A program made the position numbers and the translations under genes. Under the pieces are notes generated by a model. It worked only from the letters and a program-made list of their open reading frames with translations. It was not told the DNA's origin and made no database searches. A stretch of 64,000 bases of DNA, taken from Nocardia sp. NBC_00565 (GTDB lineage Bacteria; Actinomycetota; Actinomycetes; Mycobacteriales; Mycobacteriaceae). Location of the stretch: the NCBI RefSeq assembly GCF_036345915.1, contig NZ_CP107785.1:9610001-9674000 (forward strand). Direction: 5' to 3'. The first letter of the stretch is position 1. Each line of letters begins with the position of its first letter. This document shows positions 4,039 through 35,764 of the stretch, piece after piece.

Positions 4039-4518
4039 GTGGCCAATCCTCAGCACCTGACCAATCCCGAGGCGCTGTACCAAGCTGTGGCGGAACGGCG
4101 TCTTCAATACGAGAACCTGCTCTGGCAGGTGCCCGCCGTCAGTCTGACCGCCCAAGCTTTCTTGTTCAGCGTCGCGCTGACCCAGGACATCGACTCTTTT
4201 CCGCAGATTCTGGCCGGTTTGCTCGCGATGACCGTGTCGGTCATCTCGATCATGCTCATGGCTAGCCATAGACGAGCCGAAAGCCGGGATGCTCAATGGC
4301 TGGAGCGCTTTGAGCAGCAGGAACTGGGCGCGGGCGCTTGGGGTGCACACGGCGCAGCATTCCGGTCGCAGAAAATCGCGGATCCCGACGCCGGCTGGTT
4401 TGCCAACCTGATAAACCTCAGGCTCATGTTCCAGGTGTGGGTCGTCGGTCTCGGAATGTTCGGCCTCGTAGCCATCTTGATGATCGTGAAGACCGTGATA
4501 ATTATCGCCGTCTCCTGA
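4039..4518 (+). CDS. Small membrane protein, unknown function
   Basis: 159 residues starting at GTG. Three hydrophobic segments are visible, roughly at 32-50, 57-75 and 134-157, with an amphipathic N-terminal stretch and a cytoplasmic-looking loop of about 55 residues between segments two and three. I do not recognise a named family. An inverted repeat TGTCT-ATG-AGACA at 4018-4030 lies just before the start and could be part of the promoter or an operator. Codon use resembles its neighbours, so it is probably a real chromosomal gene. It is flanked by genes on the opposite strand and is likely transcribed alone. Confidence 0.6.
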   Translation: MANPQHLTNPEALYQAVAERRLQYENLLWQVPAVSLTAQAFLFSVALTQDIDSFPQILAGLLAMTVSVISIMLMASHRRAESRDAQWLERFEQQELGAGAWGAHGAAFRSQKIADPDAGWFANLINLRLMFQVWVVGLGMFGLVAILMIVKTVIIIAVS

Positions 4519-4576
4519 CTCGGGGCCAAGGCGCGGGCTCGTCGGGCTGGGGCATGGTCCTGTTCGTGGGCCCGGC

Positions 4577-5278
4577 CTACTCTCGGCTTCGACGGGGTGA
4601 TACGTGTTGACCAGTGGCGAGGATGAACACACTGATCACCAACACCCACGCCGGGAAGACCAGAGTTACCCAGAAACTGAAGCTGAAGACCAGCAGCAAG
4701 GCCAGGGCGAGCAGGTAGGTGGTCACCACCAGCCATCGTGGCATCAGGCCGGTGCGCAACCAGATCGTGCCGAGCGAAATCATGAACACCCCGGCCATGC
4801 GCAACACGTAGACGTTGTTGATCTGCAGCATCACCTCACGGCCGAAGTAGACGATCTCGCCCTGGGAAGCGTCCGAGTGCCGGGAGATGGCAAGGATACC
4901 GCCCGCTATCCCCGTCGAGGCGAAAATCATGGCCAGGAACAGCAGCCCGCTGCCCAGGAATACCGTCGAGAAGAAGCGGTCCTCGAGATCTCCGAGCTGG
5001 TCGCGGACCACGCCGATGAACCACAGGAACGCGATGCCCGCGAAGGGCATCAGCACCAAGGCGACGGAGATTCGTGATCCGCTGCGTCCCACCCACGCGG
5101 TCTCCGAGAAGGGGTCGTCGGGGAGCGCGGTGTGCACCAGCGCGAGGGTGGACGAGAAGAGCGCGGCGAAGACGATGCCGGCGACCGCCGCCGCACGCGG
5201 CGTCCTGAGCTGGTGGAACTGCATCCCGCTCTGCGTATCGGCCATAAACAAATCTAATGCGAACTCGCCTTTCGCCAT
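4577..5278 (-). CDS. Hypothetical integral membrane protein
   Basis: 233 residues with about six membrane segments: near 33-50, 71-90, 105-130, 155-172, 180-200 and 205-225. The loop VRDQLGDLEDRFFSTVFLGSG between segments two and three is charged and looks conserved in character. The C-terminal tail is basic (HVSPRRSRE), as expected for a cytoplasmic end. I know similar uncharacterised membrane proteins from mycobacteria and nocardiae but no function. The start could be at 5278 or at an internal ATG at 5245, which would remove a hydrophilic leader of 11 residues. It is convergent with the preceding membrane protein gene. Confidence 0.65.
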   Translation of the reverse strand: MAKGEFALDLFMADTQSGMQFHQLRTPRAAAVAGIVFAALFSSTLALVHTALPDDPFSETAWVGRSGSRISVALVLMPFAGIAFLWFIGVVRDQLGDLEDRFFSTVFLGSGLLFLAMIFASTGIAGGILAISRHSDASQGEIVYFGREVMLQINNVYVLRMAGVFMISLGTIWLRTGLMPRWLVVTTYLLALALLLVFSFSFWVTLVFPAWVLVISVFILATGQHVSPRRSRE

Positions 5279-6245: not shown

Positions 6246-7304
6246 ATGGTGGGACTCATCGATCTGGTGCAAACCCTGACCACCCCGCACCCACTCGACC
6301 GCTACCTGGAACTCGTCCGCCCCACGCTGACGGCCCGGGAACTGCGCGCGGAGATCACCCATGTCCGCCGCTCGGTACCCGGATCGGTGACGCTCACCCT
6401 GCGTCCGACCCGGCAGTGGCGCGGCCACGCCGCCGGGCAATACGTGCAGATCGGGGTCGTGATCGACGGCATCCGCCACATCCGGTGCTACTCGCCGGTG
6501 AACCCGGAGGGCCGCCGGGACCGCCATATCCAACTGACCGTCAAGGCGCATCCGGGCGGACTGGTATCGCAGTACCTGTACCGCAACGCCGTGCCCGGCA
6601 TGGTCGTCAGCCTCGAACCCGCCGCCGGCGTCTTCCGGCTGCCCGAGCCGCGCCCCGAACGGGTGCTACTGATCAGCGGCGGCAGCGGTATCACACCGGT
6701 GCTGTCCATGCTGCGCACGCTGGCGGAGGAGGGCTATCCGGGCGAGCTCGCCTTCCTGCACTACGCGAAATCGCCCGAGGCGGTGCCACATCGCGCGGAG
6801 CTGGAGGTGATCGCGCAGGCCAACAAGAACTTCCGCATCGAGATGCGCCATCCCGGCGACGGCTCCGGTTATTTCGATTACGACCAGCTCGAACGCGTCG
6901 CACCATGGTTCGCCGACGGCGAGACCTACGTCTGCGGGCCGCAGGGCCTGATGGCCGCGGTGCGCAAGATCTTCGAGGCCGAGCAGCTGAGCGATCGGCT
7001 GCATGCCGAGGAGTTCACCCTGGCCACCACGCCCGTCGACGCGGACGAGGCATTCGGCACGGTCAGCTTCTCGGCCAGCGGGAAGAACGCCGAAAACAAC
7101 GGCGCCGTCCTATTGGAGCAGGCCGAGGCCGCCGGTCTGACACCGGAGTACGGCTGCCGCATGGGTATCTGCTTCTCCTGCACCGCGGTTCGGCGCACCG
7201 GCTGCACCCGCAACGTGCGCACCGGCGAAACCAATAGCGATCCGGACCAGCCCATCCAGCTCTGCATCAACGCGCCCGTCGGCGACGTCGAGATCGATAT
7301 CTGA
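6246..7304 (+). CDS. Ferredoxin reductase, electron donor to the acyl-CoA desaturase
   Basis: 352 residues. After a short N-terminal helix come the flavin domain (about 40-145, with the RCYSPVN FAD motif), the NAD(P)H domain (about 145-260, with ISGGSGITPVLSMLRTL and CGPQG), and a C-terminal plant-type 2Fe-2S domain. Four cluster ligands are visible around C304, C309, C312 and C340. The order flavin-NAD-2Fe-2S equals mycobacterial Rv3230c, which passes electrons to the desaturase DesA3. The desaturase follows after 20 bp in the same operon, so the role is well supported. The start has an ACGGAG ribosome site. Confidence 0.9.
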   Translation: MVGLIDLVQTLTTPHPLDRYLELVRPTLTARELRAEITHVRRSVPGSVTLTLRPTRQWRGHAAGQYVQIGVVIDGIRHIRCYSPVNPEGRRDRHIQLTVKAHPGGLVSQYLYRNAVPGMVVSLEPAAGVFRLPEPRPERVLLISGGSGITPVLSMLRTLAEEGYPGELAFLHYAKSPEAVPHRAELEVIAQANKNFRIEMRHPGDGSGYFDYDQLERVAPWFADGETYVCGPQGLMAAVRKIFEAEQLSDRLHAEEFTLATTPVDADEAFGTVSFSASGKNAENNGAVLLEQAEAAGLTPEYGCRMGICFSCTAVRRTGCTRNVRTGETNSDPDQPIQLCINAPVGDVEIDI

Positions 7305-7324
7305 AAAGCTAAGGGGACCAAGCA

Positions 7325-8509
7325 ATGACAATTTTGACCGAAACGAAAGACGGCCCGCTCGTACTGAGCCCGGACCAGGTCGAGGAACTCGGCCGCGCCC
7401 TCGACGACCTGCGCGCCCGCATCGTCGCCGATCTCGGCGACAGCGATCGCGAATACATCTACTCGATCATCAAGGCACAGCGCGGTTTCGAGATCGCCGG
7501 TCGCAGCCTGATGTACCTGGGCTTCCTGCCGCCGTTCTGGTTGGCCGCGGTCGCCGCGCTGAGTGTGTCGAAGATCCTGGACAATATGGAGATCGGCCAC
7601 AACGTGATGCACGGCCAGTACGACTGGATGCGTGAGCGCGGCCTGAATTCCCGTGAGTTCGAATGGGATACGGTTTGCCCGGCGGACCAGTGGAAGCATT
7701 CGCACAACTACCTGCACCACACATACACCAACATCCACGGCATGGACCGCGATATCGGCTACGGCATCCTGCGCATGGACGAGAGCCAGAAGTGGAATCC
7801 GCTGCGCCTGGGCCAGCCGCTCTACGCCTTCGGGCTGATGGTGCTGTTCGAATGGGGCGTGATGGGCCATGACCTGGAGGTGGAGAACATCATTCGGGGC
7901 AAGCGCTCCTGGTCCGATATCAAGAAGCTGGTAAAGGGCCAGTGGCGCAAGGCCGGTCGGCAGGTCCTCAAGGACTACGTCGTGTTCCCGGCGCTGACCG
8001 GTCCGCTGTTCGTCAGCACGCTCGCCGGAAACGTCACCGCGAACCTGGTGCGCAACCTGTGGGCCTTCTCCATCATCTTCTGCGGCCACTTCCCCACCGG
8101 CGTACAGACGTTCACCGAAGCGGAGACCGCGGAGGAGACCCGCGGCGAGTGGTACGTCCGCCAGATGCTCGGCTCGGCAAATATCACTGGCAGCAAGCTG
8201 TTCCACATCATGTCCGGTAATTTGTCGCATCAGATCGAACATCACCTGTTCCCGGACCTGCCCGCGAACCGCTATCCGCAGCTGGCGCCGGAGGTACGGG
8301 AACTGTGTGAGAAGTACGGTTTGCCGTACAACACCGGTTCGCTGGGTCAGCAAGTCGGCTCGGTCTGGATGAAGATTTTCAAGCTCGCGCTGCCGCCGTT
8401 CTTAGTAGGGAAGGAGTCCACGCCCGGTGTTATCGTGATGCGACAGCAGGTCGTTTCGAGCGACCTGCAAGCAGTCGCTAGCGGAAACACAACCGAAGTG
8501 GGCGTGTGA
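7325..8509 (+). CDS. desA3: Membrane acyl-CoA desaturase, DesA3-like (delta-9 stearoyl-CoA type)
   Basis: 394 residues. The three histidine boxes of membrane di-iron desaturases are present: H92-N-V-M-H96, H127-N-Y-L-H-H132, and H-Q-I-E-H-H near residue 301-306. Hydrophobic stretches flank the boxes. The enzyme inserts a cis double bond into long-chain acyl-CoA, giving oleate-type precursors of membrane lipids. It is paired with its reductase upstream and likely controlled by the divergent TetR. The mycobacterial counterpart is Rv3229c. The start has an AAGGGGA ribosome site. The gene symbol is by analogy with M. tuberculosis. Confidence 0.9.
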   Translation: MTILTETKDGPLVLSPDQVEELGRALDDLRARIVADLGDSDREYIYSIIKAQRGFEIAGRSLMYLGFLPPFWLAAVAALSVSKILDNMEIGHNVMHGQYDWMRERGLNSREFEWDTVCPADQWKHSHNYLHHTYTNIHGMDRDIGYGILRMDESQKWNPLRLGQPLYAFGLMVLFEWGVMGHDLEVENIIRGKRSWSDIKKLVKGQWRKAGRQVLKDYVVFPALTGPLFVSTLAGNVTANLVRNLWAFSIIFCGHFPTGVQTFTEAETAEETRGEWYVRQMLGSANITGSKLFHIMSGNLSHQIEHHLFPDLPANRYPQLAPEVRELCEKYGLPYNTGSLGQQVGSVWMKIFKLALPPFLVGKESTPGVIVMRQQVVSSDLQAVASGNTTEVGV

Positions 8510-26265: not shown

Positions 26266-26307
26266 TGGCTCTGCCGTAGCAGGCCGTGGCGGCTCTGCCG
26301 TAGGAGG
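26266..26307 (+). repeat. Two-copy 24-bp-period repeat containing the ribosome site
   Basis: GGCTCTGCCGTAG occurs at 26267-26279 and 26291-26303, period 24. The second copy is extended as GTAGGAGG and supplies the ribosome site of the next gene; the first reads GTAGCAGG. It may be a recent duplication. Confidence 0.6.
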
Positions 26308-26315
26308 TGGTAAAG

Positions 26316-26909
26316 GTGTCGACGTTGCCGGTGCGGATGTGGCGGGTGCAGCCGTGGAACCCGAGTCCGCTGATGCGGGTATCGGATCGGGTGCAAGGGC
26401 TCGTTCGGATCCTGGTCGTATTGGTGCTGCTGCTCGGGGTACCCGCGGCCGCGGCGTCCGGGACGGCGGCCTATAGCTCGGCCGCCGAGCAGATCCGGGC
26501 CGAGAATGCGACGAAAACTGCGGTCTCGGCGACGGTCATCGGAACTCCGGTGCGGATGCAGGTGGCCGATCGCAACGGCACCACGGCCGAGCACTACCAG
26601 GCGGCGGTCACCTGGGATCGCGACGGAAAATCCGGCAGGGCGACGATCGTCGTCCCGGATACGGCGCAAGCGGGTGCGGCCGTGCCCCTGTGGCTCGGTC
26701 CGGACGGGCAGCCGACCGCCGCTCCTCAGCGATCCAGTGCCGCCGCCATCCGCGGTATCGGAGTCGGCGCGACGGTACTGATCGAGATCTGGGTCGGCGC
26801 GGCGGCGGTCCTGTGGTCGACCGGGTGGGTGCTCGACCACCGGCGGCATGCGCGCTGGGACCGGGAGTGGCGGCAGATCAGTCACCCGACCGGACACGGC
26901 AGTCAGTGA
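26316..26909 (+). CDS. Rv1733c-family membrane protein
   Basis: 197 residues from GTG 26316, eight bases after GGAGG. An N-terminal WNPSPLMRVSDRVQGLVRIL leads into membrane segment one (about 30-50). An extracytoplasmic domain of about 90 residues follows (ATVIGTPVRMQV, AAVTWDRDGKSGRATIVVP). Segment two is at about 150-175, and the tail is basic. This matches the mycobacterial Rv1733c family of two-pass membrane proteins known as a dormancy-related antigen; the biochemical role is unknown. It is monocistronic. Confidence 0.7.
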   Translation: MSTLPVRMWRVQPWNPSPLMRVSDRVQGLVRILVVLVLLLGVPAAAASGTAAYSSAAEQIRAENATKTAVSATVIGTPVRMQVADRNGTTAEHYQAAVTWDRDGKSGRATIVVPDTAQAGAAVPLWLGPDGQPTAAPQRSSAAAIRGIGVGATVLIEIWVGAAAVLWSTGWVLDHRRHARWDREWRQISHPTGHGSQ

Positions 26910-27044: not shown

Positions 27045-27248
27045 ATGACTCAAGGCAGTGTGAAGTGGTTCAACGCCGAAAAGGGCTTCGGTTTTATCGC
27101 ACAGGACGGTGGCGGCCCTGACGTCTTCGTGCACTACTCCGCCGTATCCGGCTCGGGATTCAAGTCCCTTGAAGAAGGACAGCGCGTGGAGTTCGAGGTC
27201 GGACAAGGACAGAAGGGCCCGCAGGCCCAGGACGTCCGCGCAATCTGA
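27045..27248 (+). CDS. cspA: Cold-shock protein, CspA family
   Basis: 67 residues. Both RNA-binding motifs are intact: KGFGFI near 15-20 and DVFVHY near 29-34. The start [17 protein letters not shown] and end [11 protein letters not shown] are typical of actinobacterial CspA. It acts as an RNA chaperone. A clear terminator follows. The 130-bp leader has no strong ribosome site, and cold-shock leaders are often regulated by RNA structure. Confidence 0.95.
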
Positions 27249-27311: not shown

Positions 27312-27947
27312 CTATGAACTGGGGCGGCGCTGCTGGCCGTCCATCGGTTGACCCATACCCGGTCCGCCCATAGCCGGTCCGCCCATGCCGCCGTTCGCCT
27401 GCGGGCCCGCATCGGGGGTGGTGCCCGTGGTTATCGCGGTCGCCGTGGCCGTTCCGTCCTTCTCGGTGCCGCGAATGCTCACCGTGTCGCCGACCTTGAC
27501 CGAGGCCGACGTGGTCGTCGCGGTGATGGTGTAGGTGTGGGAGTAGTCGTCGGCGCTCTTGGCGGTGACGGAGGTGCTGGATATCGCGGTCACGGTTCCG
27601 GTCTGGGTCAGTTCGGTGGTGTAGCCACCGTTGCCGTCGGAGACGACGAACTGGCCGTGCAGCGCTGGTCCGGACATCATGGCGCCGGAACCGGTCGATC
27701 CGTTCTGACCGCGGCTGCCCGCGGCGCCGTTCATGCTCATACCGGGTCCGCCGCCCGGACCGCCGAAGCCGCGATCGCTACTGGTGTGGTGCGCGGCGGC
27801 GTAGATCGCGCCGCCGCCTGCGACGGCGATCACAGCGGCGATGCCGACGGCTGCCAGGGTCTTCTTCGTCGACCACGCGGGCGCGGACTGTGGTGCGCCC
27901 CAGACGTGTTCGCCGTCGGACGGGGGTTGCTGGCCGGGGTTGGTCAT
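27312..27947 (-). CDS. Membrane-anchored DUF5666-type protein
   Basis: 211 residues from ATG 27947, with AGAGGAG upstream. Layout: short cytoplasmic N-terminus with WSTKKT, one membrane anchor (about 31-51), a Gly/Met-rich linker (GGPGGGPGMSMNGAAG), a compact beta-rich domain (about 105-175) with GTVTAISSTSVTAKSADDY and VKVGDTVSIRGTEKDGTA, and a Gly/Met/Pro tail. The GTV-x-x-(8)-V-K-VGD-V pattern fits DUF5666, a small OB-like extracytoplasmic domain. It is divergent from the two-component system, with CACAG arrays facing both ways, so it is probably part of that regulon. Met-rich stretches could bind copper, but that is speculation. Confidence 0.7.
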   Translation of the reverse strand: MTNPGQQPPSDGEHVWGAPQSAPAWSTKKTLAAVGIAAVIAVAGGGAIYAAAHHTSSDRGFGGPGGGPGMSMNGAAGSRGQNGSTGSGAMMSGPALHGQFVVSDGNGGYTTELTQTGTVTAISSTSVTAKSADDYSHTYTITATTTSASVKVGDTVSIRGTEKDGTATATAITTGTTPDAGPQANGGMGGPAMGGPGMGQPMDGQQRRPSS

Positions 27948-28015
27948 TGTGCGGATGCTCCTCTGCGGTACTGACCGGGCGGCTGTGCGCGCCGCCGTTG
28001 GATCAACCCTGGTTC

Positions 28016-28059
28016 GCCGACTTAGGAGCGAGCTGTGGACGAGGTCAGGATCGACTGTG
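28016..28059 (-). promoter_or_regulatory. CACAG 11-bp repeat array facing the DUF5666 gene
   Basis: On the minus strand, four 11-bp units: CACAGTCGATC, CTGACCTCGTC, CACAGCTCGCT, CCTAAGTCGGC. The order mirrors the plus-strand array 10 bp away. Direct repeats at 11-bp steps are usual for OmpR-family response regulators. Confidence 0.5.
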
Positions 28060-28069
28060 CCGTGGCGCT

Positions 28070-28113
28070 CACAGCTGGCACATAGACATCGCACAGCTAC
28101 ACCCAAGAACGGG
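28070..28113 (+). promoter_or_regulatory. CACAG 11-bp repeat array facing the response regulator gene
   Basis: Four 11-bp units: CACAGCTGGCA, CATAGACATCG, CACAGCTACAC, CCAAGAACGGG. A CATGAT -10-like box at 28118-28123 follows, ending six bases before the ATG, so the array sits in the -35 position as expected for an activator. Confidence 0.6.
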
Positions 28114-28129
28114 TCGGCATGATGCGAGA

Positions 28130-28879
28130 ATGTCCACGATGACCACCGGAAACAGTCCAGCCGAACGCGCCGTCATGCGCCGTGCCGACGGCAGCGCCAT
28201 CAGCGTGCTCGTCGTCGACGATGAGCCGGTGCTGGCCGAAATGGTGTCCATGGCGCTGCGGTACGAGGGCTGGGACGTCACCACCGCCGGCGACGGGCGC
28301 ACGGCCGTCACCAAGGCGCGCGAGACGCGCCCGGACGTGGTGGTGCTCGATGTGATGCTGCCGGATATGACCGGGCTCGAGGTGCTCGGCAAATTGCGTC
28401 AGCAGATACCGCACCTGCCGGTGTTGCTGTTGACGGCGAAGGACTCGGTCGAGGATCGCATCGCCGGCTTGACCGCGGGCGGCGACGACTATGTGACCAA
28501 GCCGTTCAGCATCGAGGAGGTGGTGCTGCGGCTGCGGGCGCTATTGCGCCGCACCGGGGTGACCACCGAGGACAGTGGCGCCCAGATCGTGGTCGGTGAC
28601 CTGGTGCTCGATGAGGACAGCCACGAGGTCACCCGGAGCGGTGAGCTCATCACGTTGACCGCTACCGAATTCGAGCTACTGCGCTACTTCATGCGCAACC
28701 CCAAGCGGGTCTTGAGCAAGACGCAGATTCTGGATCGGGTCTGGAGCTACGACTTCGGCGGGCGGTCCAATATCGTCGAGCTGTACGTCTCGTATCTGCG
28801 CAAGAAGATCGACGGCGGACGTGCGCCGATGATCCACACGCTGCGCGGTGCCGGATATGTCCTCAAGCCCGCGGGCTGA
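28130..28879 (+). CDS. OmpR-family response regulator
   Basis: 249 residues from ATG 28130. Receiver domain (about 24-140) with the acidic pocket DDEP, phospho-acceptor Asp in VVVLDVMLP near 73 and Lys in VTKPFS near 123. The C-terminal winged helix (about 152-247) has LTATEFELLRYFMRNPKRVLSK and SYLRKKIDGG, ending in RGAGYVLK. The sensor kinase gene overlaps its 3' end, so the two are a cognate pair. The CACAG array just upstream suggests autoregulation. Leaderless translation is likely because there is no ribosome site. Confidence 0.95.
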   Translation: MSTMTTGNSPAERAVMRRADGSAISVLVVDDEPVLAEMVSMALRYEGWDVTTAGDGRTAVTKARETRPDVVVLDVMLPDMTGLEVLGKLRQQIPHLPVLLLTAKDSVEDRIAGLTAGGDDYVTKPFSIEEVVLRLRALLRRTGVTTEDSGAQIVVGDLVLDEDSHEVTRSGELITLTATEFELLRYFMRNPKRVLSKTQILDRVWSYDFGGRSNIVELYVSYLRKKIDGGRAPMIHTLRGAGYVLKPAG

Positions 28880-30377
28880 CGCGTTGCGATCGCCGCGTCG
28901 CTGGTCGCTGCGGGCTCGCCTGCTGGTCGGCCAGGTGTTGTTACTCGTGATCGTGGTCGTCGGTATCGGTGCCGCGACAGAGCTTGCGCTGCAACAGTTC
29001 TTGGTGCACCAGCTCGATACCGAACTGATCGATATGCAGCGACGCTCACTGGCGGACGTCGGTGGGGGACCGAGTCTCGGGCCGCCGCCGGGTGGACAGG
29101 CACCAACTCCGCCGCCGCGGCCGCCGTCGCAAGGGCCCGGCCCCGATTTCCTGGACCGGCGCGGCATTCAACCCGATACGGTCGGCGCGCTCGTCAACCA
29201 GGGCAGCGTCACCGCGGGCAAGATCGGCGCCGACGGCACTCAGACAGCGCTGTCGGATACGGCGCGACAGCAGCTCGCAGCGGTGGCCACCGGAAAATCG
29301 GTCACCGTCGATCTCGACGGCCAAGGTCGCTACCGAGTGGTCGCGGACTCGACCTGGGAGGGTAAGACCGTCATCACCGGTTTGCCGTTGGCGTCGGTCG
29401 AGGCGACCTTGATGCGGGTGCTGCTGATCCTGGTGATCGGCACCGCGGCCGTCCTGATCGTCGCGATCACGGTGGGGATCTGGCTGATCCGGCGCGCCCT
29501 CGCACCGCTGGATCGCGTTGCGGCCATCGCGACCCGAGTCGCCGATCTGCAACTGGATCGCGGCGAAGTGGCGCTGCCCGTTCGGGTTCCGGCCGCGGAC
29601 GCCGATCCGCGCACCGAGGTCGGTCAGCTCGGCTCCGCGGTCAACCGGATGCTCGATCACATCACCAGCGCGTTGTCGGCGCGGCACGACAGCGAGACCC
29701 GGGTCCGGCAATTTCTCGCCGATGCCAGCCATGAGCTGCGCACACCGCTGGCCGCGATCCGCGGCTATGCCGAACTGGCCCAACGCAAGCGGGCCGAGGT
29801 GCCCGCCGATGTGGCCAATGCGATGGGCCGAGTGGACTCCGAATCCCGGCGGATGACCGGGCTGGTCGAGGACATGCTGCTGTTGGCGCGACTGGATTCC
29901 GGACGCGGGCTCGAGCACGAGCCGGTCGATCTGACCCAGCTGACGGTGGACGCGGTGAGTGACGCGCATATCGCCGGTCCCGAGCAGCAGTGGGATCTGG
30001 AACTGCCGGATGAGCCGGTAGTGATCACCGGCGACGCGGCCCGGCTGCATCAGGTACTGGCGAATCTGCTGGCCAACGCGCGCACCCACACCGGGCCCGG
30101 TACCACCGTGGTCACCTCGTTGGATTTCGACGGCGACCGGGGTGCGGTGTGGCGGGTGACCGATGACGGGCCCGGCATTCCGGCCGCACTGCAACCGGAG
30201 GTCTTCCAGCGCTTCGCCCGGGGCGACTCCTCGCGTTCGCGGCGGGCGGGCAGCACCGGCCTCGGGCTGGCGATCGTCGCCGCGGTGGTGCAGGCCCACG
30301 GCGGGGACATCGTGGTGGACAGCGCGCCGGGGCATACCGAATTCACCGTGCGCCTGCCCGGTGACGTAGCGGACTGA
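28857..30377 (+). CDS. Sensor histidine kinase
   Basis: 506 residues from ATG 28857 (GTG 28848 possible), overlapping the regulator gene by 23 bp. Membrane segment one is at about 21-42; an extracytoplasmic domain of about 130 residues begins with a Gly/Pro-rich stretch (GPPPGGQAPTPPPRPP); segment two is at about 180-206. HAMP follows (about 207-270), then HisKA with the phospho-His in DASHELRTPLAAI near 297. The ATPase domain shows LLANARTHTG near 400, DDGPGIP near 434 and GSTGLGLAIV near 464. The unusual proline-rich sensor suggests a cell-wall location. The signal is unknown. Confidence 0.95.
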   Translation: MSSSPRADALRSPRRWSLRARLLVGQVLLLVIVVVGIGAATELALQQFLVHQLDTELIDMQRRSLADVGGGPSLGPPPGGQAPTPPPRPPSQGPGPDFLDRRGIQPDTVGALVNQGSVTAGKIGADGTQTALSDTARQQLAAVATGKSVTVDLDGQGRYRVVADSTWEGKTVITGLPLASVEATLMRVLLILVIGTAAVLIVAITVGIWLIRRALAPLDRVAAIATRVADLQLDRGEVALPVRVPAADADPRTEVGQLGSAVNRMLDHITSALSARHDSETRVRQFLADASHELRTPLAAIRGYAELAQRKRAEVPADVANAMGRVDSESRRMTGLVEDMLLLARLDSGRGLEHEPVDLTQLTVDAVSDAHIAGPEQQWDLELPDEPVVITGDAARLHQVLANLLANARTHTGPGTTVVTSLDFDGDRGAVWRVTDDGPGIPAALQPEVFQRFARGDSSRSRRAGSTGLGLAIVAAVVQAHGGDIVVDSAPGHTEFTVRLPGDVAD

Positions 30378-30380
30378 GCG

Positions 30381-30413
30381 CACAGCGACCTCACAGCCAC
30401 GCCCAAGGTGGCA
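30381..30413 (+). promoter_or_regulatory. CACAG 11-bp repeat array before the first glycosyltransferase
   Basis: Three units at exact 11-bp steps: CACAGCGACCT, CACAGCCACGC, CCAAGGTGGCA. The core CACAGCCACGCCCAAGG matches CACAGCTACACCCAAGA of the regulator promoter at 14 of 17 positions. It begins four bases after the kinase stop codon and ends 27 bp before the next ATG. Confidence 0.6.
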
Positions 30414-30440
30414 ACCACGTCGGGTCACCAGGATCGAAGT

Positions 30441-32435
30441 ATGACTACGACCTTGCTGGACGTTCGGGCCCCGGCACCACCATCGCCGGTACCGTCGATC
30501 GGACGGAGTCAGCGGTGGCAGCGGTTGTCGCTGGTGCTGCTGTTGGCCGCCACCGCGTTGCTGTACATGTGGGATCTCGGTGCGAGCGGCTGGGCCAACG
30601 ACTTCTACGCCGCGGCCGTGCAGGCCGGATCACAGAGTTGGCAGGCGATGCTCTTCGGATCCAGCGACGCCGCCAATGCGATCACCGTGGACAAGACACC
30701 CGCTGCGCTATGGGTGATGGATATCTCGGCGCGACTGTTCGGCTTCAATTCGTGGAGCATGCTGGTGCCGCAGGCGCTGGAAGGTGTTGCGGCCGTCGGG
30801 GTCCTGTACGCGGCGGTGCGGCGGGTCGCTGGTCACTGGCCGGGGATCCTGGGCGGTGCGGTACTGGCGTTGACACCGGCGGCGGCTTTGATGTTCCGCT
30901 TCAACAATCCCGATTCGCTACTCGTTCTGCTGCTGACCGTCGCCGCCTACTGCGTGCTGCGGGCGATCGAAAAGGACAGCGGCGCTTGGTGGTTGCCCTT
31001 GGCGGGAGTGGCGGTCGGGTTCGGCTTCCTGGCCAAGATGATGCAGGCGTTCCTGGTGTTGCCCGCATTCGCGGTGGTGTTCCTGCTCGCCGCACATGTG
31101 CCGCTGCGTACGCGGATCATCAGGTCGGTGGTCGCGGTGCTCGCGATGGTGGTGTCCGCGGGCTGGTATCTGGCGCTGGTTGCATTGTGGCCCGCGTCCT
31201 CGCGGCCGTACATCGGTGGGTCGCAGCACAACAGCATCCTCGAATTAGCCTTGGGCTACAACGGTTTCGGCCGGTTGACCGGTAACGAGACCGGCGGTCT
31301 CGGCAACCTGAACTCCGATGTCGGGTGGGCGCGGCTGTTCGGATCCGAGATGGGCGGCCAGATCGCTTGGTTGCTGCCCGCGGCGCTGATTCTCGGCGTT
31401 GCCGGACTGTGGATCACGCGGCGGGCCCCGCGCACCGACCGCACCCGGGCGGCGCTGTTGCTGTGGCTGGGCTGGTTGATCGTCACCGGCGTGGTGTTCA
31501 GCTTCGCCAATGGAATTCTGCATCCCTATTACACGGTGGCGCTGGCCCCCGCGATCGCCGCGACGATCGGCATCGGTGCGGCCCTATTCTGGCGGCGCCG
31601 CAACGACATTCGGGCGACAGCGGTGCTGTCCGGTGCGCTCGTGGTGACGACTCTGCTGGCGTGCGTCCTGCTTTCCCGAACCAGCGACTGGCTGCCGTGG
31701 CTGAGCCCGGTGATCGCCGTGGCCGGTGTCGGATCGGCGGCACTGCTGCTGGTGGCGGGCAGGTTGCCGAAGGCCATCGCGAGCGTTGTGCTGGCGCTCG
31801 CGTTGGCCGCGGGGCTGGCGGGGCCGGGCGCGTATGCGCTGGCGACCGCGGCGACGACGCACAGCGGGGCGATCCCGTCGGCGGGGCCTGCCGGGGCAGG
31901 TCGGTCGTTCCCCGGCGGCCGACCCAGTGCGGGCACACCGTCCGGCAACAGTGACGGCGGTGGCACAGGGGCACCGACAGGCAGCACGGACGGTGGCACC
32001 GGCACCGGCACCGGCACCGGCACCGGGAACGTCGGTGGTGGTCGCGGCCCGATGGGCGGGCTGCTGGGCGGCGTGACGCCGGGTGCGAACCTGACCGCGG
32101 CGCTGACCGCGAACGCCGGCGACTACACCTGGGTCGCGGCCACGGTCGGATCCAACAACGCCGCCGGTTACCAGTTGGCCACCGGGGATCCGGTGATGGC
32201 CGTCGGCGGTTTCAACGGCACCGATCCGGCCCCCACTCTGGCCGAATTCCAGGATGACGTGGCGCAGCACAAGATCCACTACTTCATCAGCGCCCAAATC
32301 ATGGGCGGCATGCGCGGATCCTCCAGCGGCAGCCAGGCCGCGACCGAAATCGCCGCCTGGGTCGCGGCCAACTTCACCGCCCAGACCATCGACGGCGTCA
32401 CCGTCTACGACCTCAGCGGCGGCACGGTCGGCTGA
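30441..32435 (+). CDS. ArnT/GT39-like polyprenyl-linked glycosyltransferase, paralogue 1
   Basis: 664 residues. After a membrane segment at about 31-48 comes the GT39-type loop SGWANDFYAAAVQAGSQSW with its acidic residue and NAITVDKTPAALWVM. About a dozen membrane segments follow to residue 465. Then come a low-complexity linker rich in Gly/Thr and a soluble C-terminal domain (about 540-664) with YTWVAATVGSNNAAGYQLATG, GGFNGTDPAPTLAEFQDDV and HYFISAQIMGGM. This layout is that of YkcB-like mannosyl/glycosyltransferases that use polyprenyl-phosphate sugars on the outer face. It shares the same architecture with the protein at 33.7 kb. Confidence 0.85.
   Translation: MTTTLLDVRAPAPPSPVPSIGRSQRWQRLSLVLLLAATALLYMWDLGASGWANDFYAAAVQAGSQSWQAMLFGSSDAANAITVDKTPAALWVMDISARLFGFNSWSMLVPQALEGVAAVGVLYAAVRRVAGHWPGILGGAVLALTPAAALMFRFNNPDSLLVLLLTVAAYCVLRAIEKDSGAWWLPLAGVAVGFGFLAKMMQAFLVLPAFAVVFLLAAHVPLRTRIIRSVVAVLAMVVSAGWYLALVALWPASSRPYIGGSQHNSILELALGYNGFGRLTGNETGGLGNLNSDVGWARLFGSEMGGQIAWLLPAALILGVAGLWITRRAPRTDRTRAALLLWLGWLIVTGVVFSFANGILHPYYTVALAPAIAATIGIGAALFWRRRNDIRATAVLSGALVVTTLLACVLLSRTSDWLPWLSPVIAVAGVGSAALLLVAGRLPKAIASVVLALALAAGLAGPGAYALATAATTHSGAIPSAGPAGAGRSFPGGRPSAGTPSGNSDGGGTGAPTGSTDGGTGTGTGTGTGNVGGGRGPMGGLLGGVTPGANLTAALTANAGDYTWVAATVGSNNAAGYQLATGDPVMAVGGFNGTDPAPTLAEFQDDVAQHKIHYFISAQIMGGMRGSSSGSQAATEIAAWVAANFTAQTIDGVTVYDLSGGTVG
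31995..32024 (+). repeat. Five in-frame GGCACC hexamers
   Basis: GGCACC repeated five times, encoding alternating Gly-Thr in the linker before the C-terminal domain of glycosyltransferase 1. The repeat could vary in length by slippage without breaking the frame. Confidence 0.9.
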
Positions 32436-32461
32436 GTCGAGCACAACCAAGGGAGAACGAA

Positions 32462-33400
32462 ATGGATTACGCCACAACGGATATCGTCCGCCCGTTCCGC
32501 ACCGCGGTGGTGCCCGCCGCAGGCTTGGGCACCCGCTTCCTGCCCGCCACCAAGTCGGTGCCGAAGGAACTGCTGCCGGTGGTCGACACACCGGGCGTCG
32601 AGTTGGTGGCCGAGGAGGCCGCCGCCGCGGGCGCCGATCGGCTGGTGCTGGTCACCGCACCCGGGAAACAAGGCGTCGCAGCGCATTTCGCCACGGATCG
32701 GGAGCTCGAGCACGCGCTCGCGGAACGCGGGAAATCGGCGCTGCTGGAGAAGGTTCGCAACGCTCCCGGCCTGCTGGCGGTGCGGACCGTGCTCCAGGAA
32801 CGTCCGCTGGGGCTCGGGCACGCCGTGCTGCAGGCCGAGCGCGTGCTCGCCGCGGACGAGAGTTCGGTCGCCGTTCTGCTGCCAGACGATCTGGTGCTGC
32901 CACGCGGCGTGCTGGACACGATGGCGCGCGTGCGGCGTAGGCGGGGCGGCAGCGTACTGTGCGCGATCGACGTTCCGGCGGATCACGTCGGCGCCTACGG
33001 CATCTTCGACGTCGAGCCGGTACGTGACGCTGCTGACCCGAATGTGCTGCGGGTCAACGGAATGGTCGAGAAACCGGCGGTGGGACAGGCCCCCTCGACC
33101 TACGCCGCGGCGGGCCGCTATCTGCTCGATCGCGCGATCTTCGACGCACTGCGCCGGATCGAACCGGGCGTGGGTGGCGAGCTCCAGCTAACCGATGCCA
33201 TCGCCCTGCTCATCGCCGAGGGACATCCGGTGCACGTCGTCGTGCACCGCGGCATTCGGCACGACATCGGCAATCCGGCCGGATATCTGCGTGCCGCAGT
33301 GGATTTCGCGTTGGCGCGGGAGGAGTACAGCGCGGAGTTACGCGACTGGCTGCTGGACCGGCTCGGCGTGGACCGAACCAGGCAGGCCGGAGCCGCGTGA
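32462..33400 (+). CDS. galU: UTP-glucose-1-phosphate uridylyltransferase
   Basis: 312 residues. The nucleotidyltransferase signature PAAGLGTRFLPATKS with the following PKELLPVVD is at residues 19-45. Further motifs are PLGLGHAVLQA, LLPDDLVL, the GAYGIFDVEP strand and GMVEKPAVG, all as in GalU. It would supply UDP-glucose, a donor for sugar-phosphate carriers. It starts 26 bp after glycosyltransferase 1 with a GGGAGA ribosome site, so they are cotranscribed. This is functionally consistent with an envelope glycosylation pathway. Nocardiae usually have another galU elsewhere, so this may be a dedicated copy. Confidence 0.9.
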   Translation: MDYATTDIVRPFRTAVVPAAGLGTRFLPATKSVPKELLPVVDTPGVELVAEEAAAAGADRLVLVTAPGKQGVAAHFATDRELEHALAERGKSALLEKVRNAPGLLAVRTVLQERPLGLGHAVLQAERVLAADESSVAVLLPDDLVLPRGVLDTMARVRRRRGGSVLCAIDVPADHVGAYGIFDVEPVRDAADPNVLRVNGMVEKPAVGQAPSTYAAAGRYLLDRAIFDALRRIEPGVGGELQLTDAIALLIAEGHPVHVVVHRGIRHDIGNPAGYLRAAVDFALAREEYSAELRDWLLDRLGVDRTRQAGAA

Positions 33401-33727
33401 CCAGCCCGCGGAAGGGCCGCCACGCTCCCAGCCACGGGAACGGCTCGAGTACAGCCGTGTCCCGCCGGTCCTGGCCGGCCTGATGACGGCGGCCTGGTTG
33501 ATCCAGAGAGTGGGTTACCGACCGCTCGAACTGTGCGTGTGAGAGCGGCGCGGGTTCACAGGCGGTGCATAGCTTGGACAAAGAGTCGGCCCACGCCGCA
33601 GTCCCAACATTGGACATGACTACCGCGACCCGAGGAGCAAGCGAGGGTTCGCGCGGTACCGCATCCGACGAACGCGCCGGTCGGCACCGTCCCACCCATT
33701 GAATCGATAGCCGACAGAGGATTCGAT
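33401..33727. other. Intergenic region with a third CACAG array
   Basis: 327 bp without a gene between galU and glycosyltransferase 2. It holds an array of three 11-bp units at 33557-33589 (CACAGGCGGTG, CATAGCTTGGA, CAAAGAGTCGG). Nothing else was recognised apart from a run with CGGGAACGG inverted bits. Confidence 0.5.
33557..33589 (+). promoter_or_regulatory. CACAG-type array before the second glycosyltransferase
   Basis: CACAG, CATAG and CAAAG units at 11-bp steps. The first two have the same order as units one and two of the regulator promoter array. The gene start is 138 bp downstream, so a leader or a second element lies between. Confidence 0.4.
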
Positions 33728-35764
33728 ATGACGATCACCGAAGCGCCGCCGCGGCGCACCACCCACCGTGCCGAGCCGGAGAAGCCGGCGCGAGCGACCC
33801 GATTGCTGTTCGGCCCACCGGATCAGCCACGCTGGGCCCGACCCGGACTGTGGACGCTGCTGATCGCCACCGCCGTGCTCTACCTGTGGGGACTGAGCAA
33901 ATCCGGCTGGGCCAACGACTTCTACGCCGCCGCCGTGCAGGCGGGCACACAGAGCTGGAAGGCGCTGCTGTTCGGCTCGCTGGACGCGGGCAACGCCATC
34001 ACGGTCGACAAGCCACCGGCATCGCTGTGGGTGATGGGCCTGTCCGGCAGGCTCCTCGGGTTCAGTTCGTTCTCGATGCTGTTGCCCCAGGCGCTGATGG
34101 GAGTCGCCTCGGTCGGCCTGGTGCACGGTGCGGTGCGGCGCTGGAGCGGTCCGGCGGCCGGTCTGCTGGCCGGTGCGGTGCTGGCGCTGACTCCTGTCGC
34201 GGCACTGATGTTCAAGTTCAACAATCCGGACGCGTTGCTGGTGCTGTTGCTCATCGTGGCGGCATATTGCACGGTCCGTGCGACCGAACACGGCAGTGGA
34301 CGCTGGCTCGCATTGGCCGGTGTGGCAGTGGGTTTCGGCTTTCTCACCAAGATGATGCAGGCGTTCCTGGTGCTGCCCGCGCTCGGTCTGGTGTTCCTGG
34401 TCGCCGCGCCGATCGGGTTCTGGCGTCGAATCGTCAAGCTGCTCGGCGCATTCGTGGCCATGGTGATCTCGGGTGGCTGGTTCGTCGCCCTGGTCAGCTT
34501 GTGGCCGACGGACTCCCGGCCGTACATCGGCGGATCGACCGATAACAGTCTGCTCGACCTCGCCCTGGGCTACAACGGTCTCGGCCGCGTCCTCGGCGGT
34601 GAGGGCAACGGCGGTGGCGGCGGTGGCGGTGGCGGTGGCAACACCGGTTTCGGCGGCAGCACTGGAATCACCCGCATGTTCGGTGACTCGATGGGCACCG
34701 AAATCTCCTGGCTGCTGCCCGCGGCGCTGATCGGTCTGGTCGCGGGACTGTGGTTCACCCGCCGTACCCCGCGCACCGGACGCACCCGCGCGGCGCTATT
34801 GCTCTGGGGCGGTTGGCTGCTCGTGACCGGTGTCGTGTTCAGCTACATGCAGGGCACCATGCACCCGTACTACACGGTGGCGCTCGCGCCCGCCATCGCC
34901 GCGGTAGTGGCGATCTCGGTGACCGAGCTGTGGCGCGGCCGCCAATTCCTGACAGCCCGTATCGCCCTCGGCGCCATCTCCGCGACCACCGGAGTCTGGA
35001 ACTACATCCTGCTCGACCGCACACCCGACTGGTATCCGGCGCTGCGCTGGATCATCCTGGTCGGCTCGATCGTGATCGCCGCGATCATGATCGTCGGCGC
35101 GCACCAACTGCGTAAGTTCACCGCCGTCGTGGTCATCGCCGGTCTGCTGTTCGGGCTGGCGGGAACCACCGCGTACACGATCGAGACCGCCGCGACGGCG
35201 CACAGCGGCTCCATCCCTACCTCCGGCCCGAATACCGGTCGCGGATTCGGCGGCGGACCCGGCGGCGGAGGCAACGCGCCGGGCGGAATGTCCACGGAGG
35301 CAGGCGCTTCCGCTCGACCGGCGAACGGCGCCACAGACGCGCCGACAACGGCGTCCGGTACGGAGGATCAAGCCGCGGCGGATCCGAGCGGTGCGGGCGG
35401 CGGTCCGGGCAACGCGAGTTCCAACAACACGGAGTTGCAAGAAATGCTGAAGAAGACCGACACCCGTTGGGCCGCGGCGACGGTGGGCTCGCAATCGGCC
35501 GGCAGCCTCGAACTCGCCACCGCCACCTCGGTCATGGCGATCGGCGGATTCACTGGCAGCGACAATTCACCGACGCTGGCCCAGTTCCAGCAGTACGTCG
35601 CCAACGGAGACATCACCTACTTCATCTCCGGCGGCGGCATGGGTGGTGGCCGAGGCGGCGATGCCAGCAGCTCGAGCGAGATCACCGCATGGGTCCAAGC
35701 CCACTACACCGCCACCACCGTCGGCGGGAGCACGGTCTACGACCTCACCCAGCCGACCTCCTGA
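33728..35764 (+). CDS. ArnT/GT39-like glycosyltransferase, paralogue 2
   Basis: 678 residues with the same plan as paralogue 1. The N-terminal segment and GWANDFYAAAVQAGTQSW loop are near 55-75, multiple membrane spans run to about 480, and a soluble C-terminal domain carries RWAAATVGSQSAGSLELATA, GGFTGSDNSPTLAQFQQYV and TYFISGGGMGGG. Two differences stand out: a poly-Gly insert (about ten Gly, residues 292-306) in an extracytoplasmic loop, and a Gly/Ala/Ser-rich linker of about 90 residues. It probably transfers a sugar from a polyprenyl carrier to a surface acceptor. An AGAGGA ribosome site precedes ATG 33728. Confidence 0.85.
   Translation: MTITEAPPRRTTHRAEPEKPARATRLLFGPPDQPRWARPGLWTLLIATAVLYLWGLSKSGWANDFYAAAVQAGTQSWKALLFGSLDAGNAITVDKPPASLWVMGLSGRLLGFSSFSMLLPQALMGVASVGLVHGAVRRWSGPAAGLLAGAVLALTPVAALMFKFNNPDALLVLLLIVAAYCTVRATEHGSGRWLALAGVAVGFGFLTKMMQAFLVLPALGLVFLVAAPIGFWRRIVKLLGAFVAMVISGGWFVALVSLWPTDSRPYIGGSTDNSLLDLALGYNGLGRVLGGEGNGGGGGGGGGGNTGFGGSTGITRMFGDSMGTEISWLLPAALIGLVAGLWFTRRTPRTGRTRAALLLWGGWLLVTGVVFSYMQGTMHPYYTVALAPAIAAVVAISVTELWRGRQFLTARIALGAISATTGVWNYILLDRTPDWYPALRWIILVGSIVIAAIMIVGAHQLRKFTAVVVIAGLLFGLAGTTAYTIETAATAHSGSIPTSGPNTGRGFGGGPGGGGNAPGGMSTEAGASARPANGATDAPTTASGTEDQAAADPSGAGGGPGNASSNNTELQEMLKKTDTRWAAATVGSQSAGSLELATATSVMAIGGFTGSDNSPTLAQFQQYVANGDITYFISGGGMGGGRGGDASSSSEITAWVQAHYTATTVGGSTVYDLTQPTS

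Follow-up and report, generated by a model that had tools for sequence, protein, structure and literature searches.

What reads the arrays of short CACAG-like repeats that stand in front of four genes of one two-component locus in Nocardia sp. NBC_00565? The locus lies in a stretch of 64,000 nt (the window, positions 9610001-9674000 of a 9.71-Mb single-contig genome) and holds, in order, a divergent DUF5666-like gene, a response regulator (RR), a sensor histidine kinase (HK), a first glycosyltransferase (GT1), a GalU-like gene and a second glycosyltransferase (GT2). The arrays are phased to their promoters, conserved in other genomes and linked to tcrX, to YkcB and YkcC genes and to small proline-rich (Pro-rich) genes. 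We consider them probable operators of the adjacent RR, a regulator of TcrX type, which would activate its own tcrXY pair, the DUF5666-like gene and the two YkcB-type glycosyltransferases; judging from sequence, we put the probability of this reading at roughly 0.8. The arrays and their predicted -10 hexamers are as follows.

28070..28107, plus strand: RR promoter array, with units CACAG (28070), CATAG (28081), CACAG (28092) and CCAAG (28103)
28118..28123, plus strand: RR -10 hexamer CATGAT, with the ATG 6 nt downstream
30379..30434, plus strand: GT1 promoter, with units CACAG (30381), CACAG (30392), CCAAG (30403) and ACCAC (30414)
30429-30434, plus strand: GT1 -10 hexamer CAGGAT, with the start codon 6 nt after it
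33555..33610, plus strand: GT2 promoter, with units CACAG (33557), CATAG (33568), CAAAG (33579) and CCCAC (33590)
33605-33610, plus strand: GT2 -10 hexamer CAACAT
28006..28061, minus strand: DUF promoter array and -10, with units CACAG (28059), CTGAC (28048), CACAG (28037) and CCTAA (28026)
28011-28006, minus strand: DUF -10 hexamer CAGGGT

Each promoter carries four 5-bp units in a gapless series at an exact 11-bp step, with the fourth unit beginning 15 nt ahead of the -10 hexamer, and in a gap-free alignment of the four with 16 promoters from six related genomes the units start at about -60, -49, -38 and -27. Among 38 arrays outside that training set the -10 (NANNNT) was offset from the last unit by 15 nt in 33 and by 14 nt in five, all mycobacterial tcrX promoters (L153-L157), a count that is partly selected since many of these arrays were found with a profile containing the -10; that selection does not affect the window arrays, all four at 15 nt, or L153, L154, L156 and L157 (14 nt), which were found by reading the DNA upstream of tcrX. 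A start codon followed 6 nt past the offset-15 hexamer in 24 of the 38 and 7 nt past it in six more. The same 6-nt distance at RR and GT1 predicts leaderless mRNAs, which for the RR is likely.

The arrays were scored with a position weight matrix (PWM) profile built from the 16 promoters, all of other Nocardia species, which include near-duplicate pairs and exclude the window. This profile gave 36.6 bits at GT2, 36.1 at RR, 33.4 at GT1 and 20.1 at DUF, and 11.3 at the next position in the window. Matrices of the units alone, spaced at 11 bp, ranked GT2, GT1, RR and DUF first to fourth of 127,926 strand-positions (scores 19.8-28.9), the fifth being an intragenic site at 26815 on the minus strand (17.1); at spacings of 8-10 and 12-15 bp the top unit score anywhere in the window was 13.7. 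Over the window and 32 loci the profile made 66 matches above 9, including the 16 training rows, against 5-30 for each of 20 column-permuted profiles. Across the whole genome GT2 ranked 1 (expectation value, E, 7e-5), GT1 2 (0.0013), RR 4 (0.025) and DUF 13 (0.95), with a dioxygenase promoter at 5391840 in rank 3 (0.0019) and the promoter of a YkcC-YkcB operon at 7006494 reaching E 0.054; the remaining matches had E of 0.1 or worse, and weak genomic sites may be missed as the scan scored 150 of 8229 first-look candidates. That the window promoters top scans by profiles blind to them supports their role as operators.

A sequence-only reading of this DNA had already placed arrays before these four transcription units, and all four are present where it put them, in a stronger form than it described; the direct repeats at 11-bp steps that it associated with an OmpR-family regulator are borne out by spacing 11 alone standing out, and the array that it set at the -35 position before CATGAT does cover the -35 region, CATGAT being the -10. 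The two divergent arrays share one order, as it said (CACAG-other-CACAG-CC(A/T)A), although the DUF array is the most degenerate of the four, and the GT2 array, which it called weaker, in fact scores best. Of the checks that it proposed, comparison with random frequency is answered for the arrays by their places at the top of the genome ranking, and comparison across related genomes found arrays at their RR and glycosyltransferase promoters.

By its sequence, the regulator is a TcrX-type OmpR-family response regulator. In a tree of 56 rows it falls with mycobacterial TcrX-type regulators in a clade of 37 (support 99/93); a PhoP-side group of 14 rows (support 90/82) holds M. tuberculosis PhoP and the gene at 8314938 of the Nocardia genome, which is 56% identical to the RR, and the window RR is not the PhoP orthologue. 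M. tuberculosis TcrX itself is not among the rows, and from the Nocardia genome the tree is relied on for the window RR and the PhoP row (L002), as of its other rows L005 was dropped, the helix could not be recognised in L003, L006, L007 and L008, and the branches of L003, L004, L007 and L008 are long. The name TcrX is carried by an N. gamkensis relative with 90% identity to the window RR, and TcrX records of M. simulans, M. avium and M. decipiens are 93-100% identical to the M. simulans RR, which in turn shares 80% identity with that of the window; the RRs of eight mycobacterial loci share 80-85% identity with it. An initial assignment of the regulator as TrcR was dropped because the relatives carry the name TcrX. 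The best PDB match of the RR is PhoP (263 bits).

The two clades differ at one residue of the recognition helix, which is Leu in 37 of 37 TcrX-clade rows and Ser or Thr in 14 of 14 PhoP-side rows; in the PhoP-DNA structure this residue, Ser216, lies with Asn212 at the middle bases of the motif (PMC4832192). The DNA differs in parallel, A or T standing at position 3 of at least one unit in 20 of 21 TcrX-family autoregulatory arrays and in none of 11 PhoP-family arrays, a contrast whose Fisher value overstates the significance since the arrays of related species share descent and are not independent.

An RR orthologue is present in 12 of 59 Nocardia genomes, and a profile match at E<=0.001 was found in 11 of these 12 and in two of the 47 genomes without one. 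Of the six RR-positive genomes that contributed no training sequence five match at this threshold, and the sixth (G025) has an array before its RR regardless (PWM 27.6). Outside the training set RR arrays occur in five Nocardia genomes and before eight mycobacterial tcrX genes. The DUF array scores 35-43 bits in L046-L048 (training rows), L140, L147 and L149, and just 18-25 in L137 and L138. We also took 80 named loci, 30 of them TcrX-like (at least 62% identity) and 50 with more distant RRs, and searched the 200 nt ahead of each RR for chains with a minimum of three units at spacings of 5-21 bp. At spacing 11 such chains were found in 12 of the 30 TcrX-like loci and one of the 50 others; at every other spacing there were none in either group. 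Seven Nocardia RR promoters outside training, among which L147 is near-identical to a training row and L148 comes from a training genome as its second copy, gave four chains at spacing 11 and elsewhere one, at spacing 9. In the 776,830 strand-bases of the 30 loci there were 18 chains, of which 12 lie before the RR, five before glycosyltransferase genes and one elsewhere.

Two further arrays were also seen. A site of GT2 type (L115, G056:C32:99790; CACAG-CATAG-CAAAG-CCCAA) has no gene of the set within the fetched 3 kb and is possibly a relic. At L120 (G001:C2:265450) a tcrX-type array and promoter lead straight into the gene of a kinase that shares 75% identity with the window HK, and the stretch fetched there contains no RR match.

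Among mycobacteria, arrays precede tcrX in eight loci, and a small Pro-rich gene downstream of asd has one in four of four mycobacteria examined (M. simulans, M. shimoidei and two others), these being the sole chains in about 31 kb, both strands, of the asd-downstream regions. We take this gene to be Rv3706c from the gene order of M. tuberculosis, where asd lies two genes upstream, and not from sequence comparison. A 2011 study reportedly described inverted repeats at tcrX. In M. tuberculosis three promoters are bound by TcrX, that of tcrX, that of Rv3706c (in an electrophoretic mobility shift assay) and that of Rv3705A. The binding site was assigned to a mirror repeat of 7 bp, the second half of which lies partly over the putative -10; the other promoters do not have this repeat, and a genome-wide screen gave no consensus (PMC10883919). 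The arrays at Pro-rich promoters, together with the bound M. tuberculosis counterpart, support the reading of the array as a TcrX operator. In M. asiaticum a perfect 7-bp mirror repeat, GTCATAG/GATACTG, consists of unit 3 and the -10; three other mycobacteria have a direct repeat, GCGCATA, that links unit 2 to the -10. To judge from these other species, the published half-sites BS1 and BS2 of M. tuberculosis could therefore correspond to a single array unit plus the promoter box. In Mycobacterium sp. MFM001 a further array (L246, about 1529, minus strand; CACAG-CACAG-CTCAT-GAAAG) precedes the gene of an apparent multi-pass membrane protein, with E 0.002 under a mycobacterial profile (R2).

The genes of the window locus are the following.

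27312..27947, minus strand: DUF5666-like protein, 211 aa, with one hydrophobic stretch in the N-terminal region, probably a membrane anchor
28130..28879, plus strand: RR, 249 aa, TcrX-type OmpR-family response regulator by sequence, recognition helix NIVELYVSYLRKKI
28848..30377, plus strand: HK with HAMP, HisKA and HATPase domains, at the TcrY position; 509 aa from the listed start
30441..32435, plus strand: GT1, a GT-C glycosyltransferase of lipid-linked sugars by its domain matches (PMT_2 and YkcB_C)
32462..33400, plus strand: GalU-like nucleotidylyltransferase, 26 nt 3' of GT1, without an array
33616..33702, plus strand: candidate 28-codon leader open reading frame, starting 5 nt past the GT2 -10
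33728..35764, plus strand: GT2, by domain matches a second YkcB-type GT-C glycosyltransferase

The HK adjoins the RR in relatives too, and the candidate leader could be a leaderless upstream reading frame of GT2. The closest named matches are N. suismassiliense (93% identity) and N. mikamii (88% identity, identical gene order). A gene for an Rv1733c-family membrane protein (26307-26909) and one for a cold-shock protein (27045-27248) are neighbours. As to the DUF5666-type label of the sequence-only reading, the window protein reaches 19.6 bits against PF18914, under the Pfam cut-off of 27; two orthologues were scanned, one of them above the cut-off (29.0) and the other marginally below it (26.6). 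The protein has 373 homologue matches, and among the best 120 the named ones are mostly from Nocardia.

Both glycosyltransferases exceed the curated cut-offs for PF13231 and PF24878, which mark YkcB-type GT-C enzymes, in the Bacillus subtilis literature transferases of polyprenyl-linked sugars (PMC11081497, PMC5836110); by analogy, we infer that those of the window move a polyprenyl-linked sugar to a surface acceptor. A TcrX-type RR-HK pair with YkcC and/or YkcB within the fetched stretch (up to 7 kb per side) was found in 12 of the 30 TcrX-like loci, from Nocardia, three Mycobacterium entries, Mycolicibacterium chubuense, Amorphoplanes, Actinoplanes, Acrocarpospora, two Streptomyces, Kitasatospora papulosa and a metagenome-assembled genome of Propionibacteriaceae. 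All 12 have a profile match above 15 before a glycosyltransferase or YkcC gene, the weak members being L167 (15.3) and L178 (15.7). In the Nocardia genome itself arrays stand upstream of all four YkcB_C genes, of TcrX type at GT1 and GT2 and of PhoP type at 7007898 (behind its YkcC) and 6228350; the YkcC near 7006560 has a PhoP-type array, and no YkcC lies beside the window glycosyltransferases, no search having been made for further copies. That sensor, regulator and two lipid-linked-sugar glycosyltransferases belong to one circuit, as the earlier reading proposed, agrees with sequence and with a gene order conserved in relatives.

The same reading counted UDP-glucose synthesis in the circuit, a part that we dropped. 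The GalU-like gene has no array of its own, is lacking between GT1 and GT2 in seven of seven relatives that show the interval (L043, L045-L049, L149), scores 238 bits against the GalU equivalog TIGR01099 (cut-off 326.8) and has two paralogues of similar score in the genome; it is apparently a lineage-specific local insertion. L046 has a different gene in the interval (6788-7762), possibly at a site of repeated insertion, and this gene presumably resembles Rpn-family nuclease/transposase proteins. In G045 (L044, about 4397-4610) GT1 is mostly missing, its 5' end adjoining its 3' end, and the gene that now follows the GT1 promoter is GT2. The signal, which had been left open, has in M. tuberculosis been published as acid, TcrX there being acid-induced and phosphorylated by its kinase (PMC10883919).

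We infer from these sequences a binding of the RR to the arrays, an activation rather than a repression, a dependence on phosphorylation and a glycosylation output. On this model TcrX, once phosphorylated, would assemble head to tail along the array with a protomer on each 11-bp unit, as solved for M. tuberculosis PhoP; the last protomers would stand in for the -35 contact and bring RNA polymerase to the -10. The output would be activation of tcrXY, of the divergent DUF5666-like gene and of the two YkcB-type GT-C enzymes, both of which would move a polyprenyl-phosphate-linked sugar onto a surface acceptor.

Could the arrays be chance or compositional repeats of GC-rich DNA? CACAG pairs at 11 bp do exist elsewhere in the genome, little above an even spread: at spacings of 6-21 bp there are 203 pairs genome-wide, and among about 100 of them that were listed 10 are at 11 bp (an even spread would give about 6), whilst a reversed control pattern is commoner (470). 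Such pair counts are uninformative, and a 15-bp tandem repeat with CACAG (CACAGTTTCGACAGC, G000:C1:191314-191453) is unrelated to the 11-bp arrays. The full four-unit arrays take ranks 1-4 in the window and the top of the genome, exceed what permuted profiles find and are conserved across genera, and we regard chance, to which we give next to no weight, as ruled out by conservation, profile ranks and the specificity for spacing 11. It is also unlikely, at about one chance in ten, that the arrays are repressor sites at which TcrX occupies the DNA to -27 and blocks RNA polymerase, a reading suggested by the position of the units over the -35 region, seen in the window's four promoters as well as in the 16 relatives aligned with them. 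Activated promoters of the PhoB/PhoP class typically show such exact phasing to the -10 where a -35 hexamer would otherwise stand, which argues against repression. So does M. tuberculosis, where TcrXY activates its own genes as well as Rv3706c (PMC10883919).

A more serious contender, though one that we still hold to be the less probable, is that the arrays are bound mainly by the genome's own PhoP orthologue (8314938), the RR being a target or co-user. M. tuberculosis PhoP reads TCACAGC-N4-TCACAGC, in which the 4-bp spacer is strict, and has a higher affinity for three or four repeats than for two (PMC4832192), the promoters of the PhoP orthologues themselves carry the four-unit architecture in this genome and five others, and PhoP-type arrays precede the two other YkcB genes of the genome. 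Against it stand the A or T at unit position 3, a mark of TcrX-family and not PhoP-family autoregulatory arrays, and the E<=0.001 matches, which follow the TcrX orthologue across the 59 genomes. The circuit with its own feedback of the sequence-only reading stands in part, autoregulation being probable; since PhoP-clade regulators use the same architecture, cross-binding is possible and the circuit is not closed.

The third-ranked genomic site was considered as a fifth TcrX target and rejected, the array there occurring with and without TcrX and being mostly of PhoP type.

L096 3931-4881 (G000:C1:5391930): gene of a lipoprotein-like intradiol dioxygenase (PF00775); four-unit array, -10 TAACGT; conserved in most of the 25 Nocardia that have the gene

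The gene is present in 25 genomes, four with and 21 without TcrX; 23 of its upstream regions score above 10 and 17 exceed the maximum (15.4) of 1000 mononucleotide shuffles, whose 99th percentile is 8.3. As its array occurs in TcrX-less genomes, we count it as a PhoP-type target.

Several results weigh against TcrX operators as the answer. The operator role in Nocardia is deduced from sequence, and the PhoP clade shares the architecture. At the looser threshold of E<=0.05 a match is found in 11 of 12 genomes with the RR and also in 16 of 47 without it, the sites inspected in the latter including PhoP promoters (five genomes), dioxygenase promoters (two), one YkcC promoter and, in G001, the tcrX-like promoter before a kinase gene; at E<=0.001 the two RR-less genomes that match are G026, at its dioxygenase promoter, and G056. 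The third-ranked site of the genome itself, 5391840, belongs to the dioxygenase gene L096, with its array also in TcrX-less relatives. In 18 of the 30 named TcrX-like loci the strict search yielded no chain, and no array was found at M. arupensis tcrX. A genome-wide scan with R2 (E<=1) missed the Pro-rich promoters, which are thus weaker than the site of tcrX itself and were found by a targeted look. Two loci were inspected for an array at a second Pro-rich gene, and neither has one. Of six mycobacterial genomes, three have the tcrX promoter as their sole R2 site at E<0.05, so a regulon of 70 genes is not explained. The published study (PMC10883919), finally, places the TcrX site at the mirror repeat, with no consensus.

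The proposed circuit can be set beside known systems. Like the arrays, the M. tuberculosis PhoP operator is built of direct repeats, a 7-bp motif with a 4-bp spacer, and binds oligomers of two to four (PMC4832192), whereas the window units tolerate T or A at position 3 (CATAG, CAAAG, CCAAG), come as four phased units and would be read by a TcrX with Leu. M. tuberculosis TcrXY shares with the window the RR-HK order, the name and the autoregulation, which is predicted here (PMC10883919); there a mirror repeat was published, whereas here we find an 11-bp direct-repeat array with YkcB and YkcC glycosyltransferases as recurrent neighbours. C. difficile HexRK-hexSDF also has a two-component system over a local envelope glycolipid pathway, with different enzymes and in a different phylum, and is an analogy only (PMC10128005). 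The window has no YkcC beside its glycosyltransferases and other regulators than the ykcBC genes of B. subtilis, where YclJ and YrkP are presumably OmpR-family response regulators. In that species, too, a YkcB-type GT-C enzyme is under response regulators, ykcBC lying in the YclJ and YrkP regulons, and YkcC makes the lipid-linked sugar (PMC5836110).

Among the papers listed in searches of the open-licence literature we found no account of a TcrX direct-repeat operator or of a TcrX-glycosyltransferase circuit. With somewhat less assurance than for the window itself, we think it reasonably likely that the four-unit CACAG/CATAG array is the TcrX operator of actinobacteria, mycobacteria included; that TcrX and PhoP share a grammar of four 11-bp units and are split by unit position 3 (T or A versus C) and by the helix residue (Leu versus Ser or Thr, PhoP Ser216); that the ancestral output of TcrXY was lipid-linked envelope glycosylation; and that the published mirror repeat is a unit plus the -10. 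TcrXY is an acid-sensing system needed for the persistence of M. tuberculosis, with a mechanism called possibly atypical, and the array may be the recognition site that was sought there without success (PMC10883919). If this is right, a simple rule would separate TcrX from PhoP specificity, and a conserved, phased operator would make the TcrX regulon predictable in many genomes. Through the array, surface glycosyltransferases of several actinobacterial families are tied to the TcrX system, a hint that they were its original output.

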